The notes beneath the pieces are model-generated. The model searched no databases. It was not told the origin of the DNA and saw only the letters and a program-made list of their open reading frames with translations. Source: Pelagomonas calceolata (Eukaryota > Sar > Pelagophyceae > Pelagomonadales > Pelagomonadaceae). From it: 64,000 nt of DNA. This document shows, one piece after another, positions 26,640 through 33,392 of the stretch. The first letter of the stretch is position 1. Every line of letters begins with the position of its first letter. The stretch is from the NCBI GenBank assembly GCA_918797485.1, contig CAKKNE010000002.1, positions 2,880,501 to 2,944,500 of the forward strand. The letters run 5' to 3'. The translations under genes were made by a program, and so were the position numbers.

Positions 26640-27152
26640 TCAATGCATCGGTTCGACCGCGGCGCCCAGCGCCGCCCGCTGAGCAAGCAATTCCTCGTCC
26701 CTTCGCGGAGAATATATCCCTTCCCCCTAGATACACCCGAATCCCTATCAGAGATACAAACAGCGTAATAATGAGTGAACTCTTTATTGCACCGTTCCGC
26801 CCCCAACGCGGCAACGCCTAGTGTAAACTTTTGGTACCAGAAACCGAACCCGAGGGAGCCACTAGGTTCAACGCCAGGCTCGAGCCCTCCTAAACCCTTC
26901 GAAGACCGCCTGGTAAGGTATCGATAAAGTACCTTATCCTGGGCGGTAGGGGGTGCAGCCAAAACAACGGAGCGTCCCGCGAGAGGCTAATAGCCGAGGA
27001 GCACGCGGGCCAGGAAGGCAAGCGGGAAGCCGCCTCGGACCAGCAACCAGCCGCTCACCAAGGACTGCGACGCCTGCAGAAAGGGCTGCCTCGGCCCAGC
27101 AAGAACAAGCTAGCCACAGCCCGGCCCCACGCCGCCGAGGCAACCAACAACC
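26640..27152. other. Intergenic region, nothing recognised
   Basis: These 513 bp hold no gene I can support. At 26914-26935 the arms TAAGGTA and TACCTTA flank a short spacer and could form a hairpin. A long minus-strand frame crosses the region (26423-26962) but covers the epimerase antisense and looks like noise. Confidence 0.4.
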
Positions 27153-28451
27153 ATGGGCCTCCTCGACACGACCACCGCGTTACCGACGGAGCCGACCTGG
27201 GGCGCCGCCCTCCGGACCATCGAAAGGGAGCGGACGATGCCGGCCTGGGAGCGCATCGGCCAGAAGGCACCGGCCCGGGACCACATCTTCACGCATTATG
27301 AAAAAAGGGGCCACTTCAACGCGTTATTACAAAGAGACAACGATCCCAAAAGAGAACAAAAATTCAGAGATAACCGCGACGCCGCCTTCACGGCCAAGCA
27401 GGCTCGGTGCAAGCAACAGCAAGCCTCGTTCGACATCGTCTCCCACCGCCAGACGGGCGGTTTAAGGCCCGTGCCCGCTTCCGATCAACAAAAAAATGGA
27501 AAACCGAAGCCGCCCGACACGAACACGAAGTGGAACATTATTACTCATGTCGGGCGCGAGGGCTGCGAGCCGTTTACTTCTTCAAAAGATCGTTTAGCAG
27601 CGGCCCACGGCGAATTGTTGCCGGCTTCTTGGAAACGACGCGAGTATGACATCGTATCCACGAAATACAACAATAACCATACCGCGAGACACCACCGCGA
27701 CCGCGAAAATGCCAAACACAAGGCGCAAAAGAAGTTCTGGGAGACTAGGGATTTTGACTTTATCAAAATTAAGTATCATGACGACGACAAGGAGTCGGAC
27801 TTCCAGCAGCAGCGGTCTCATTTAAATTCGATCGCGGGCGCCGGCGCGATGGCGAAATTACCGCCGGCCATGCAGTACTGCGAAGGAGCTGCTTATAATC
27901 TAGTGAGCCACGAAATCAAGGACGCGTCGAAGCTCGAGGTGTCGAACGCCGTGACGAATTCCGGAGTGGCGTCGAAGATGGGCGCTGCGGTCGACAAGCA
28001 CCACAAGCACGTCGCGGAGGAACGCTACCAGCGCGACAAGCGTCGAGCTTTACAACGGTTCAACAAGACGTCGCACCTCAAAGAGATGATGGACGGGCGG
28101 CACCACGACTACGACGTCGTTACCGGAGAAAGCTTCTACGGGCGGAACCCGAAGTTCCGGGCGCCTTCTCGCCTGCAGCGCGCGCCGACGACGTGGGACC
28201 GCCTCGCGGCGTCGGGCCCCGTCTATTCTGGCACGATTGCTGGTAAGCGCGGCGCGACGTCAAAGGCCGCGGGCGCTGCAGCGGCGTCGCCGGCCTTCTC
28301 CATGCGGCCCCAGGCTGGCTCGGCGTCGTCGCGGCCGGCGTCGTCCGTGCCCGTCGTCGCCCGCGCGTCGCCGCGCGTCGTCGACGCGCCGGTCGCGCCC
28401 GCGCCCTCGAAGCCGGCCGTGCCTCGTCTGAAAATCCCGGCGCAGTCCTAA
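27153..28451 (+). CDS. Basic protein with repeated YDIVS-type motifs, possibly flagellum-associated
   Basis: The 432-aa protein starts MGLLDTTTALP. It carries several spaced copies of an aromatic motif: FNALLQRDNDPKREQKFRDN, FDIVSHRQTGG, YDIVSTKYNNNHTARHHRDR, FDFIKIKYHDDDKESDF, YNLVSHEIKDAS and YDVVTGESFYG. Between them are His/Lys/Arg-rich stretches. The last 90 residues are Ala/Ser/Pro-rich and disordered. Similar motif arrays occur in axonemal microtubule inner or associated proteins of protists as I recall them, so a flagellar role is possible. No domain was recognised with certainty. Confidence 0.75.
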   Translation: MGLLDTTTALPTEPTWGAALRTIERERTMPAWERIGQKAPARDHIFTHYEKRGHFNALLQRDNDPKREQKFRDNRDAAFTAKQARCKQQQASFDIVSHRQTGGLRPVPASDQQKNGKPKPPDTNTKWNIITHVGREGCEPFTSSKDRLAAAHGELLPASWKRREYDIVSTKYNNNHTARHHRDRENAKHKAQKKFWETRDFDFIKIKYHDDDKESDFQQQRSHLNSIAGAGAMAKLPPAMQYCEGAAYNLVSHEIKDASKLEVSNAVTNSGVASKMGAAVDKHHKHVAEERYQRDKRRALQRFNKTSHLKEMMDGRHHDYDVVTGESFYGRNPKFRAPSRLQRAPTTWDRLAASGPVYSGTIAGKRGATSKAAGAAAASPAFSMRPQAGSASSRPASSVPVVARASPRVVDAPVAPAPSKPAVPRLKIPAQS

Positions 28452-28942
28452 CCGTATTCTTCGTTTTAGATGTAGTCTTCTTGACGAGTTTGGCAAGTTC
28501 GCCTTGCCTTGCTTCGAGGTCTAGCTTCGAGGTAGGGCCACCTACTCGTAGCCGCGAGCCGACGCGGGGTTGTAGATCGGGGTTGTGGGTCTGCGCTACC
28601 GGCCCGCCCCAAGCCCTCATACGCCGTCGCCCCGAATTGGAGTCTTCGTGTGGCCGATGGTATTGATGTTGACCTCGGAAGGGCCAGATGATCGCCCGCT
28701 GGGCTCCTGAGAAAGCGCTGCGTAGTTGATTTTGCGGGCATATTACTACCGCATTGATCATCTGTGTGCAGCGCAAACCGTCGCAGTAGCAGTAGGGTGT
28801 CGTGACGTCTCACGTCCTTGACGCGCAACGCCAACGGTACGCTCTGCTCCAAGCAAAGCGCCGCAGCGTTGTACCTTCATCTGACCTGTAAGCGACGCCT
28901 GACGCTCGCTGCGCCGTAGTCAACCGGCGCACGTAGACAGTC
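28452..28942. other. Intergenic region upstream of the uricase fusion gene
   Basis: These 491 bp between two plus-strand genes hold the promoter of the uricase fusion. I see no palindrome copy, repeat, RNA gene or coding sequence. Confidence 0.45.
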
Positions 28943-31236
28943 ATGGCCTGGCGCCAAGCCCTACCACGCCTCGCCGCCGCAACCACTGCACCCGCCGCGT
29001 CGCTCGCCCTGTGCGAGGCGCAACGAAAGACAGATTATGATCTAGCGAGGCACCAGCACGGCAAGACGCGCGTGCGCGTTCTTAAAGTAAGAAGGGAGGG
29101 CGGCGTCCACGCCATCTCCGAGTACAAGGTGGAAACGACCTTATTCTCGCCCGCTTATGATCGGGTGTTTACGAAGGGCGACAACACCGATTTAGTGGCG
29201 ACGGACACGCAGAAGAACACCGTGTACATCGTCGCCAAGCGCACGGACGCGTCGACGCCCGAAGCCTTCGGCGTGGCCCTGTGCGAGCACCTGCTCAAGG
29301 AGTACCCGATCCTATCGGGCTGCCGCGCGGACGTTGAGAGCGTCGAGTGGGCGCGGGCCTGCGTCGACGGGCGGAACGGCGCCCAGCCGCACGTGCACGG
29401 CTTCCTGCGTTCGGAACCGGAGCGGCAAGTGGCCTCTGTCAGCATGACCCGAGGCCAGGGCCCGAAGGTCGAGTCATCGATCGAAGGTCTCGTCGTCCTG
29501 AAGACGACGCAGTCCGGCTTCGAGGGCTACCTCAAGGACAAGTACACGTTACTCCCCGACACGCAAGAGCGGTGCATGGCGACGGAGATGACGGCCTCCT
29601 GGAACTACGCGCAGCTGCCGCAGGATTTTGGTGCTGCTCGAAACAACGTGCGCCGCCAGATCCTGAAGGGTTTCTTCGGCGAGCCGGCGACGGGCGTCTA
29701 CTCCGCGTCGCTCCAGGAGTCGATCTACGACGCCGGCTGCCTTGTGTTAGATGCGGTGCCCGAGGTGAAGCAGATCGAGATCGACACGCCGAACCTGCAC
29801 TACTTACCGGCCAAGCTGCTCGACGCCGTCGGCGAAAAGTTCGAGGACGACGTCTTCATTCCCACCTCGGAGCCGTCCGGCTCCATCAACTGCATCGTGG
29901 CGCGCGGCGCCGGCGGCCGGCCGACGACTACCGCTCCGACGTCGGGGCCCAAGTTGTCTGTTGAGACGAAGCCCGTATCTCTCAACGTGGCCGACGCCCA
30001 GGCGCGCGCTGCCGAAGAAATACGAGGTGCAATTATTACTCCTAAAGCCAACTCGTGCCCCATGGCGGTGCGACTGGCGTGGCACGCGTCGGGCACCTTC
30101 GATAAAAATGATGGCTCTGGTGGTTCGGATGGAGCGACGATGCGGTTTGCTCCCGAACGCGAAGACGGCGCGAACGCCGGCCTAGGCATCGAGCGCGACA
30201 TCCTGCAGCCCGTCAAAAGGGCGGTGCCCGAGGTGTCGACGGCGGACATCTGGACGTTGGCGGGGGCGCAGGCCGTCGAGGTATGTGGCGGCCCTCGCAT
30301 CAATCACGCGATGGGTCGCAAAGACGCGACGTCCGGTGCACAATGCCCGCCTGTGGGCCGGCTGCCGGACGCCAGCCAGGGCGCGGACCATCTGAGAGAT
30401 GTCTTCTACCGCATGGGCTTTGACGACCGCGAGATCGTTGCATTAAGCGGCGCGCACACGCTCGGCCGCTGCCATAAAGTAAGAAGCGGCTTCGACGGGC
30501 CCTGGACGTCGAACCCCCTCAAATTTGATGGGGAGTACTTCCGGAACCTCATGACCAAGGACTGGGTGCCGCGGGACTGGGACGGGCCCCTCCAGTATAC
30601 CGATAAGGAGTCGCATTCGTTGACGATGCTCCCTTCCGACTTGGCATTGAAGGAGGACCCGGCGTTCGCCGTTTATGCGTCCAAGTACGCCGCCGACGAG
30701 TCCCTGTTCTTCGAGGACTTCAAGAAAGCTTTCGAGAAGCTCATCAGTCTGGGCACGACGGCGGCGCCCGCCTCGACTGATCTTGACGACGCCGCCGCGA
30801 AGGTCCGGGAGGAGTGCATGCACGGCTCTCTCGAGCACGCGCAGACCGCCTGGCGCCCGGGCGTCGACGCCAACTCCTATGATGCCGGCTCGCGCCGCAC
30901 GGCGCTGCACAAGGCGGCGTGCGTTCCGGCGTCCTTGTTCGAGTTGTGGAGTGTCGACATCGGGCGCCAACGTAGCGTTTGTTACACAGGTTCTGGGGCC
31001 ACTCGCACATCGTTCCTTGGCTCGTCGACGACCTCGGCGCCGCCGTCGACGCGACGGACTCGGCCGGCGACACCGCGTTACATGATGCGGCGCGCTTCGG
31101 CCACGCCAACGTCGTGTCCGAGCTGCTCGCCCGCGGCGCCTCGCCGAACGCGCGCAACGCCGCCGGCAAGACCCCGGGAGAAGTGGCCGCGGAGAACGGG
31201 CACGCGTCCGCGCTCCGCCGCTTCCTCGAGAAGTAG
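28943..31236 (+). CDS. Urate oxidase - ascorbate/cytochrome c peroxidase - ankyrin fusion, two exons
   Basis: Exons 28943-30918 and 30990-31236 give 740 aa. Residues about 28-322 are a whole uricase: Lys41 and Thr87 of the catalytic pair, Phe193, Arg210, Gln258 and Asn284/His286 (TPNLHY) are all present. Residues about 345-605 are a class I heme peroxidase closest to ascorbate peroxidase: distal Arg377, Trp380, His381 in VRLAWHASG, proximal His505 in LSGAHTLGR, Arg514, Trp521 and the Asp566 partner. Residues about 620-740 hold ankyrin repeats (TALHKAAFWGHSH, TALHDAARFGHANVVSELLA). Uricase makes H2O2; the attached peroxidase would remove it. The head MAWRQALPRLAAATTAP resembles a mitochondrial presequence and the C-terminus lacks SKL, so it may work outside peroxisomes. 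One continuous frame links uricase and peroxidase. Confidence 0.92.
30919..30989 (+). other. Spliceosomal intron between peroxidase and ankyrin parts
   Basis: The 71-bp intron starts GTGCGTTCC and ends GTTACACAG. Splicing joins GC to G and yields the canonical ankyrin phrase TALHKAAFWGH. The end ACACAG is like the introner tip, but the introner core is absent. Confidence 0.85.
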
Positions 31237-31340
31237 GCGTCTCCCGCCGCAAGCTGTACATGTTATTCCCTGTCCCCCTTCCCCTCCCACGAACTAACCA
31301 CGACGGAAATCTACACAGTCGATACTTATGGCATAAGGCG

Positions 31341-31631: not shown

Positions 31632-32090
31632 GGCGGTCCTAGGCGGCGTCGCGCCGGCGGCTGCCGATGGGTGGTGGGTTGTGCTGGCCGCTTATCGGTG
31701 AGTCGGCGTTTGCTCAGGTTGCAGCAATCGCTTCAGACGTACAAATGATTGCAAACCGTGCTCTGCGATGGCTACTGCGTCGCTTTGCTGCGGCAAAAGC
31801 AACTGGGCTGGGAGGCGTGAGAAACCCGATTTGACGAGCTGTTTTTCGAGCGAGGAGAAAAACGCGTAATGCAGGCGTCTATAGCAGTCGCACAAGATTG
31901 CATACAAGCCTTTTAAGCCGAGCCGGATCACGGACCGCCGAGCACCAAACTCAGACCTCGCTCAGGCAATTCGCCCTGCTGGCGCGGTTTCTACAGACGA
32001 CACGGTGCCCAAACGTATATAACAAGCATCGCTGAAGCCATCTAGTTACCATACAAGCGCAGCGAGCGCGCCACACGGCTGTCAAGCACC
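31632..32090. promoter_or_regulatory. Divergent intergenic region upstream of COX10
   Basis: These 459 bp separate the small membrane protein and COX10. AAACCCGATTTGA lies at 31822-31834, 256 bp before the COX10 ATG, as also seen upstream of RFC1. No palindrome copy or RNA gene is seen. Confidence 0.4.
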
Positions 32091-33392
32091 ATGCTGCTGC
32101 TGCACCTCAGGCGCCCGGCTGGGCGCCTAGCGGCGCGGCGCCTCAAATCAATCGCCGCGACGCCCGAAACGGCACCAGATATCGTGATCGTGAACCCGCT
32201 CAAGACCGCGGCGCCCGCGTCCACCTTGGTAATAGACCTCCCCGACCGCTCGGCGCTGACGCCCTCGCAATTCATCAGTATAGCCGGCGAGCTCGGCAAG
32301 AGTAGATTGAGCGGCTTCGTGGCCATGACGGGCGCCATGGGCTATGCCGCGACTGGGGCGCCTTTATTGGCGCCCGGCTTCGCGCTGACAACTTTGGGCG
32401 TCTTCGGCACGTCGTGCGCCGCGAACGCGTTGAATCAAATCCGGGAGACGGAGCGGGACGCGCGCATGGCGCGGACGCGGAAGCGGCCCCTGCCGTCCGG
32501 GCGATGCTCGCCCGAGTTCGCCGCGGCCTTCGCAACGGCAGCCGGCGGCGCCGGCGCGTCGGCGCTAGCTGTTTTGGATCCCGTGGCGTCGGCCCTAGCC
32601 GTCGGCAACATGGCCTTGTACGCGGGCGCGTATACGTCGCTGAAACCGAAATCAGAGATCAACACGTGGGTCGGCGCCGTCGTCGGCGGCGTACCTCCAC
32701 TCATCGGCTGGGCCGCCGCCGGCGGGGCCCTGTACGGTCCCACGTCCCAAATACACGCCGAAACGTTACTCCAAATGGAGCCCGCGGCGATGCTCATGGC
32801 CACGCCGGCGGAGCCGTGGTTGTTGGCCGGTGCTTTGTATCTCTGGCAGTTCCCCCACTTTTTCGCCTTGGCCTGGGTCCATCGCACGGATTATGGCCGA
32901 GGGAACTTCGCAATGGTGCCTTGTAATGATCCTTCTGGCGTGAGGACGGCGAACTTGATACTGAGGTACGGCCTCTACTCGTCGGTCTTCCCCTTCGCCG
33001 CGGTGGCCATGGGCGCCGCGTCGCCCATGTTCGCCGTCGAGGGCTGCTTGTTAAATGGCGCTCTAGTAGCTGCCTCGATGCGCTTCCGACAAAAAAGGAC
33101 AACAGAAAACGCGCGGACGGTCTTCCGCATCACGCTCGCGTATCTGCCTCTCCTACTCTTCTTCCTGCTATTGCATTCCGAAAGGTTAACGAGGGACGAG
33201 GAAGGTAGACCGGCCAAGTCGCCGACGCTGGGGGACGCGATGCGTCCAATCAATGACTTGGGGAGGATGCTCTGCCTCCACGAACTCCACCCAGCGACTC
33301 AGCGGCGGCGCGCGTCGACCGACGCCGACACGCCTTCATTTTGTCCAGTCGATACTGGCGGGAAGAAGGACTTGCCGGGGACGCGGCGATAG
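32091..33392 (+). CDS. COX10: Protoheme IX farnesyltransferase
   Basis: The 433-aa enzyme makes heme O from heme B for cytochrome c oxidase in the mitochondrial inner membrane. The basic head MLLLHLRRPAGRLAARRLKS is a presequence. The first prenyl-binding motif is NQIRETERDARMARTRKRPL; the second region includes YTSLKPKSEINTWVGAVVGG and VPPLIGW. WQFPHFFALAWVHRTDYGRG is the third hallmark. About eight hydrophobic helices are present. The last 60 residues (after LLHSERLTRDEEGRP) are polar and beyond the family's usual end. Confidence 0.95.
   Translation: MLLLHLRRPAGRLAARRLKSIAATPETAPDIVIVNPLKTAAPASTLVIDLPDRSALTPSQFISIAGELGKSRLSGFVAMTGAMGYAATGAPLLAPGFALTTLGVFGTSCAANALNQIRETERDARMARTRKRPLPSGRCSPEFAAAFATAAGGAGASALAVLDPVASALAVGNMALYAGAYTSLKPKSEINTWVGAVVGGVPPLIGWAAAGGALYGPTSQIHAETLLQMEPAAMLMATPAEPWLLAGALYLWQFPHFFALAWVHRTDYGRGNFAMVPCNDPSGVRTANLILRYGLYSSVFPFAAVAMGAASPMFAVEGCLLNGALVAASMRFRQKRTTENARTVFRITLAYLPLLLFFLLLHSERLTRDEEGRPAKSPTLGDAMRPINDLGRMLCLHELHPATQRRRASTDADTPSFCPVDTGGKKDLPGTRR

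Follow-up and report, generated by a model that had tools for sequence, protein, structure and literature searches.

A uricase joined to a class I heme peroxidase and ankyrin repeats in Pelagomonas calceolata: a putative enzyme that removes its own peroxide

The window analysed here is a stretch of 64,000 nucleotides of the Pelagomonas calceolata genome (GenBank assembly GCA_918797485.1, contig CAKKNE010000002.1, positions 2,880,501 to 2,944,500 of the forward strand). It carries a uricase-peroxidase-ankyrin gene (28943-31236, + strand) with one 71-nt intron and a spliced product of 740 aa, which is a new domain architecture made of known families. The uricase part would oxidise urate and yield H2O2, the heme peroxidase part would reduce this H2O2 on the spot, taking electrons from ascorbate or cytochrome c, and the ankyrin repeats may dock to partner proteins or assemble. 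The site of action is probably outside peroxisomes, most likely in or at mitochondria. Taken as a whole, this account of one polypeptide that makes and removes peroxide, with ankyrin repeats for docking, is held here with moderate confidence; we infer both activities, their coupling, the mitochondrial site, the donor and the docking role. The parts of the gene are as follows (P0001 and similar numbers denote proteins in a collection of 355).

28943..29029, + strand: presequence-like head, aa 1-29, Ala-rich, first acidic residue at 25 with two K/R before it
29030..29917, + strand: uricase, aa 30-325, both halves (PF01014, TIGR03383, Foldseek, catalytic columns)
29918..29974, + strand: linker, aa 326-344, length and sequence varying among relatives (junction peptides)
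29975..30772, + strand: class I heme peroxidase (ascorbate/hybrid type), aa 345-610
30773..30918, + strand: ankyrin region, exon 1 part (PF12796, aa 626-715)
30919..30989, + strand: intron, GT...AG, 71 nt, within the ankyrin region (from the sequence; the spliced product matches P0001)
30990..31236, + strand: ankyrin region, exon 2 part, with the TAG stop (31234-31236)

The reading frame (28937-31297, + strand) runs for 786 codons without a stop, with its first ATG at 28943. In 2000 first-order Markov sequences simulated with the same composition, the longest stop-free stretch had a median of 186 and a maximum of 522 codons. The ankyrin pattern is lost in the unspliced frame and restored by removing 30919-30989, which leads to a product of 740 aa ending at the TAG at 31234-31236. 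This splice, including the intron and the product length, had been predicted in an earlier note on the same DNA and is borne out by P0001, which is 740 aa long and 98% identical to the Pelagomonas protein. The ankyrin part of P0001 is 99% identical to the predicted joined exons over 130 aa (aa 611-740).

In the spliced protein, Pfam identified Uricase (170.5 bits in two stretches) and peroxidase (163.8 bits, aa 365-585), both above cut-off, and Ank_2 (55 bits, aa 626-715, cut-off 27.3). The NCBIfam model urate_oxi (TIGR03383) scored 283.4 bits against a cut-off of 168.4, covering profile positions 2-283 of 283. The open frame and the Pfam matches thus confirm that one frame encodes a uricase and a class I heme peroxidase, followed by an intron and ankyrin repeats, as the earlier note had it. 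The catalytic residues of both enzymes were also said to be present, and they are kept by the lists assumed here. The uricase part keeps K10, T57, D58, F159, R176, Q228, N254 and H256, which we take to be the catalytic residues, in presumed numbering and including the presumed K10-T57-H256 triad; V227 is replaced by Leu. The uricase reference sequence used here agrees with PDB 4d12 along its whole length. The peroxidase part keeps R38, W41, H42, H163, R172, W179 and D208, presumably the residues that matter in this family. These are kept in every aligned row that covers them, save Cys32 and Lys30, which both lie near the ascorbate site; at the latter position a Lys is aligned only with a one-residue shift before the helix, and Ala is found when read ungapped from R38.

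In the structural comparison, the uricase part matched 4mb8 (Foldseek TMt 0.89-0.90). Both enzyme parts of the P0001 model are mostly predicted at high confidence, with pLDDT below 50 at aa 1-25 and aa 325-346. A structural second look covered well only aa 344-612, and the closest solved folds to the peroxidase part appear to be the hybrid ascorbate/cytochrome c peroxidases of Leishmania and Trypanosoma, though the difference in Z is small. The peroxidase part might thus use cytochrome c instead of ascorbate; the protein would then lie in the intermembrane space of mitochondria and hand the cost of oxidising urate on to the respiratory chain. We rate this as rather unlikely. Arg172, presumably the ascorbate-binding residue in plant ascorbate peroxidase (APX), is kept in 28/28 rows of the peroxidase residue alignment, reference included, plant APX outscores the Leishmania peroxidase by sequence (224.8 vs 216.9 bits), and the head of the protein is open to other readings. 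Ascorbate is a plausible donor.

The fusion is found in other proteins as well. The counts given below are lower bounds because the three homologue searches contributed their best 120 of 195, 784 and 793 matches, and two of the three, including the first protein search, scored the best 8000 candidates only. Uricase and peroxidase are joined in at least 22 of the 355 collected proteins, and 20 of these 22 also match the ankyrin part, P0009 and P0114 being the two without it. Eight (P0001-P0006, P0009 and P0010) are near-copies of the Pelagomonas protein, with P0002-P0006 appearing to read through the intron. The remaining 14 (P0007, P0008, P0011, P0012, P0013, P0016-P0021, P0023, P0035 and P0114) are divergent (48-71% identity) and share the domain order, and the ankyrin part is present in 13 of the 14. 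The uricase start is absent from P0020, P0023, P0035 and P0114, with P0035 holding only the last 59 residues of the uricase part. P0007, P0016 and P0018 bear transcript names (MMETSP, EukProt entries). P0014 and P0022, two further proteins, represent fragments or chimeras of the Pelagomonas type; by eye, P0022 looks like a chimeric contig.

The earlier note had suggested searching for relatives with the same domain order, and the 14 divergent fusions, 13 with ankyrin, are the outcome of that search. It had also considered that no relative might be fused and that the assembly might have joined two loci. Such an assembly or gene-model artefact is rejected, its probability being negligible: the frame is continuous within a contig of 6.1 Mb (C2), and near-identical as well as divergent copies exist elsewhere, some with transcript names. 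No viral relative was found, since none of the eight viral contig stretches that matched the peptide pattern encodes one. Among phage records, 11 matched and none spanned 80% of the query; the best five of these 11 comprise three annotated as catalase/peroxidase and two without annotation. In the open-access literature searched, a scope that leaves most subscription papers outside, no earlier report of a uricase-peroxidase fusion was recognised among the matches listed, in line with the earlier note, which knew of none.

One position differs among the fused uricases. At the place of Phe159 of Aspergillus flavus, which presumably stacks on urate, a Trp is found in all eight of P0016-P0021, P0023 and P0114. 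This exchange may go along with a changed substrate or rate.

The architecture probably arose more than once. A careful peroxidase tree was made of 64 rows, a subset of the 114 rows of a larger tree that includes 90 unfused peroxidase-ankyrin rows; P0002-P0006, P0009, P0010, P0114 and the two-peroxidase protein P0036 were left out. Four label changes are needed for the 15 uricase-joined domains, the starred branches force four, and the bootstrap 5-95% range is four to four. A single origin with these 15 domains as one clade was rejected, being 174.6 log units worse (p-AU 1.7e-70); this test was run after a quick tree had been seen. Smaller clades, named after the peroxidase tree was seen, were rejected on it too: the Pelagomonas group with P0013 (p 1.8e-4), the Pelagomonas group with group C and P0012 (p 2.0e-4), and the latter set plus P0080, P0101 and the allantoin-synthase rows (p 0.0089). 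Group names (A, C) are labels coined in this analysis. The Pelagomonas group adjoins the unfused P0024, and P0013 adjoins the unfused P0079.

For the uricase part, a careful tree was made of 72 of the 131 rows of a quick uricase tree; P0002-P0006, P0010, P0014, P0022, the fragment P0035 and the short unfused P0166 and P0226 were left out. The careful tree needs two changes, and one clade of all 16 fused rows was not rejected (p 0.052), nor was a clade of the Pelagomonas group and group C in a test that omitted P0012 and P0013 (p 0.19). In the quick uricase tree, four changes are needed and the starred branches force only one. Since the fused peroxidase domains do not form one clade, two to four separate fusions are likely on these alignments. 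A single old fusion that was afterwards split many times, or gene exchange, is kept as an alternative because the uricase tree does not reject one clade and the two trees differ on the position of P0013. The trees also bear on a neutral origin, in which a chance event linked two co-expressed enzymes that function independently of each other. Unfused parts are indeed common, with 119 uricase-only rows and 93 peroxidase-ankyrin rows without uricase (three of them with superoxide dismutase, SOD). However, the 14 divergent proteins keep the domain order at 48-71% identity, and the peroxidase tree points to more than one joining event, so a neutral fusion seems quite improbable.

The peroxidase-ankyrin module has a role wider than uricase. 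In four proteins, P0015, P0107, P0239 and P0242, it precedes an OHCU decarboxylase and an HIU hydrolase (identified by Pfam in P0107 and P0239). These two activities, together allantoin synthase, are the next two enzymes of the urate pathway after uricase. In P0015, two tandem copies of the module, the first incomplete, stand ahead of these enzymes. P0238 and P0240 begin with a Met and a presequence-like head; their ankyrin part is followed immediately by OHCU decarboxylase and HIU hydrolase, and neither has a peroxidase match. P0241 lacks its start (no Met) and is probably of the same ankyrin-only type; the few residues that precede its ankyrin part are similar to those in P0238. A Cu/Zn SOD is joined to the module in P0040, P0070 and P0098, the last holding the SOD domain only in part. 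A further protein, P0036, has two tandem peroxidase domains and no uricase or ankyrin match.

Uricase and SOD produce H2O2 and allantoin synthase does not. The presence of the module on allantoin synthase and the ankyrin-only versions therefore indicate that H2O2 removal is not the whole story. The partners of the module may be explained partly by peroxide removal, and for the rest by assembly or docking. A stronger form of this idea is that the module mainly gathers urate-pathway enzymes into a metabolon, with peroxide removal as a secondary function. The starred group of 14 rows in the peroxidase tree also speaks for it, as it mixes eight uricase rows, all four of the allantoin-synthase rows that have a peroxidase, and two unfused rows. 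However, a pure scaffold would not need the peroxidase residues, which are conserved as described above, and the SOD fusion points to peroxide chemistry. A module mainly for assembly is therefore considered unlikely.

With regard to the cell site, the earlier note had described a presequence-like head and the absence of a C-terminal SKL, and both are seen. The 740-aa protein ends in LEK and has no peroxisomal targeting signal type 1 (PTS1, [SAC][KRH][LM]). Among 16 full-length fused rows, seven of which are near-copies of the query, none has a strict PTS1, and every one begins with an extension of 20 aa or more ahead of the uricase part. Unfused uricases show such an extension in 77 of 99 full-length rows (P0014 and P0022 included) and a strict PTS1 in 11 of 99; the extensions were scored by length and not by kind. 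Nine of these 11 are all nine rows of a deep outgroup branch in the quick uricase tree, named green algae included. The heads of the fused rows compared are rich in Ala and carry two to four basic residues ahead of the first acidic residue, which lies at 22-32 (P0012 read from its Met 14); they resemble the head of another peroxidase of the genome, L006. A mitochondrial site is inferred from these features.

Two pelagophytes, Aureoumbra (P0129) and Chrysophaeum (P0219), the latter placed in Pelagomonadaceae by NCBI, and the haptophytes Prymnesium and Coccolithus likewise have unfused uricases with a head and without SKL. Leaving the peroxisome therefore needs no fusion, and the loss of PTS1 probably preceded it. 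The earlier note had proposed a self-detoxifying enzyme that can work outside peroxisomes. The conserved joining of an H2O2 maker to an H2O2 user supports the first half of this proposal, whereas the idea that the fusion lets the enzyme leave the peroxisome is not supported in this form, as unfused relatives already lack SKL.

The genome searched comprises 32,445,274 bases in 8 contigs, and the gene described here is the only uricase detected in it. According to the parts of PMC9481584 consulted, the published genome has 32.4 Mb and 63.6% GC, with six nuclear contigs and one contig each for plastid and mitochondrion; the main text of that paper has no words beginning purine, uric or ascorbate. 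Neither a catalase (5/14 controls matched) nor, by three domain models, a xanthine dehydrogenase was found in six-frame searches, which do not account for introns and had solely prokaryote controls. The allantoicase search matched 0/14 control genomes, so its result carries no weight. Matches to the xanthine/uracil permease family are present; imported urate would fit these together with the lack of a detected xanthine dehydrogenase. One permease match, L010 (G000:C2:732000-732620), has three in-frame TGA codons, possibly from introns read through. The genome has five peroxidase matches, the other four in frames without a Pfam ankyrin match, and tblastn with the ankyrin part returned no fetched locus but this gene, the frame of L006 being cut off. 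A GLDH-like gene for ascorbate synthesis scored 389.4 bits with TIGR01676, below the cut-off of 458.25, in an ORF spanning profile positions 46-454 of 541.

A number of points weigh against a coupled, self-detoxifying enzyme. H2O2 diffuses fast, so tethering may bring little kinetic gain. Allantoin synthase, which makes no H2O2, bears the module, and ankyrin-only forms exist (P0238, P0240 and probably P0241). The single Pelagomonas allantoin synthase lies in a frame without the module (and without a PTS1). Most uricases are unfused (119 uricase-only vs 22 joined rows among the 355 proteins). Cys32 of plant APX is not kept, the residue being Asn as aligned and Ser when read ungapped from R38. 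Finally, the pTM is 0.47, and the model thus does not predict how the domains are arranged with respect to one another. A self-detoxifying enzyme is nevertheless the best reading. A broader scenario is more doubtful. Here, uricase would have left the peroxisome in several microbial eukaryote lineages and then independently joined the same module. In one lineage, the module or ankyrin alone would also have joined the next two enzymes. Urate breakdown would then take place within a particle held together by ankyrin repeats, probably located at mitochondria, and this particle would destroy the peroxide it makes, drawing electrons from ascorbate or cytochrome c.

Within the window, two other frames lie near the gene. 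A UbiA prenyltransferase (32046-33392, + strand, 157 bits) resembles, when inspected by eye, a heme farnesyltransferase of the COX10 type that carries a basic head, and a 445-codon open frame (27114-28451, + strand) gave no Pfam match.

Uricase is a textbook peroxisomal oxidase, a location usually explained by its H2O2. A uricase with its own peroxidase and no PTS1, in a genome without a detected catalase, would show another way to contain peroxide. Repeated fusion would show that uricase-peroxidase coupling is selected, and the finding bears on urate use by an open-ocean picoalga.

Compared with the cofactor-free urate oxidases (PF01014/TIGR03383; Aspergillus flavus, zebrafish), the Pelagomonas protein has the same whole fold, the K-T-H triad, R176, Q228, N254 and F159 (in presumed numbering), but adds a C-terminal peroxidase and ankyrin repeats, has a presequence-like head and lacks a PTS1. 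Unfused peroxidase-ankyrin proteins have the same module, 50-66% identical over the aligned stretch among the matches listed, without uricase. The peroxidase domain of the Pelagomonas protein shares the fold, the distal R38/W41/H42, the proximal H163, and W179, D208 and R172 with class I heme peroxidases such as plant APX and the hybrid-type A enzymes of Leishmania and Trypanosoma (PMC4232752, in part), but sits behind a uricase and before ankyrin repeats, and Cys32 is not kept. The nearest comparable case is Guillardia theta. According to the consulted parts of PMC9244630, both activities share one compartment there and no catalase was found, but urate oxidase and APX are two separate PTS1-bearing proteins, which localised to peroxisomes in a diatom host. 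PuuD is likewise a fusion that handles the electron or peroxide problem of urate oxidation; it differs in being an unrelated membrane urate oxidase with a cytochrome c domain, suggested in the consulted parts of PMC4562309 to avoid rather than remove H2O2.
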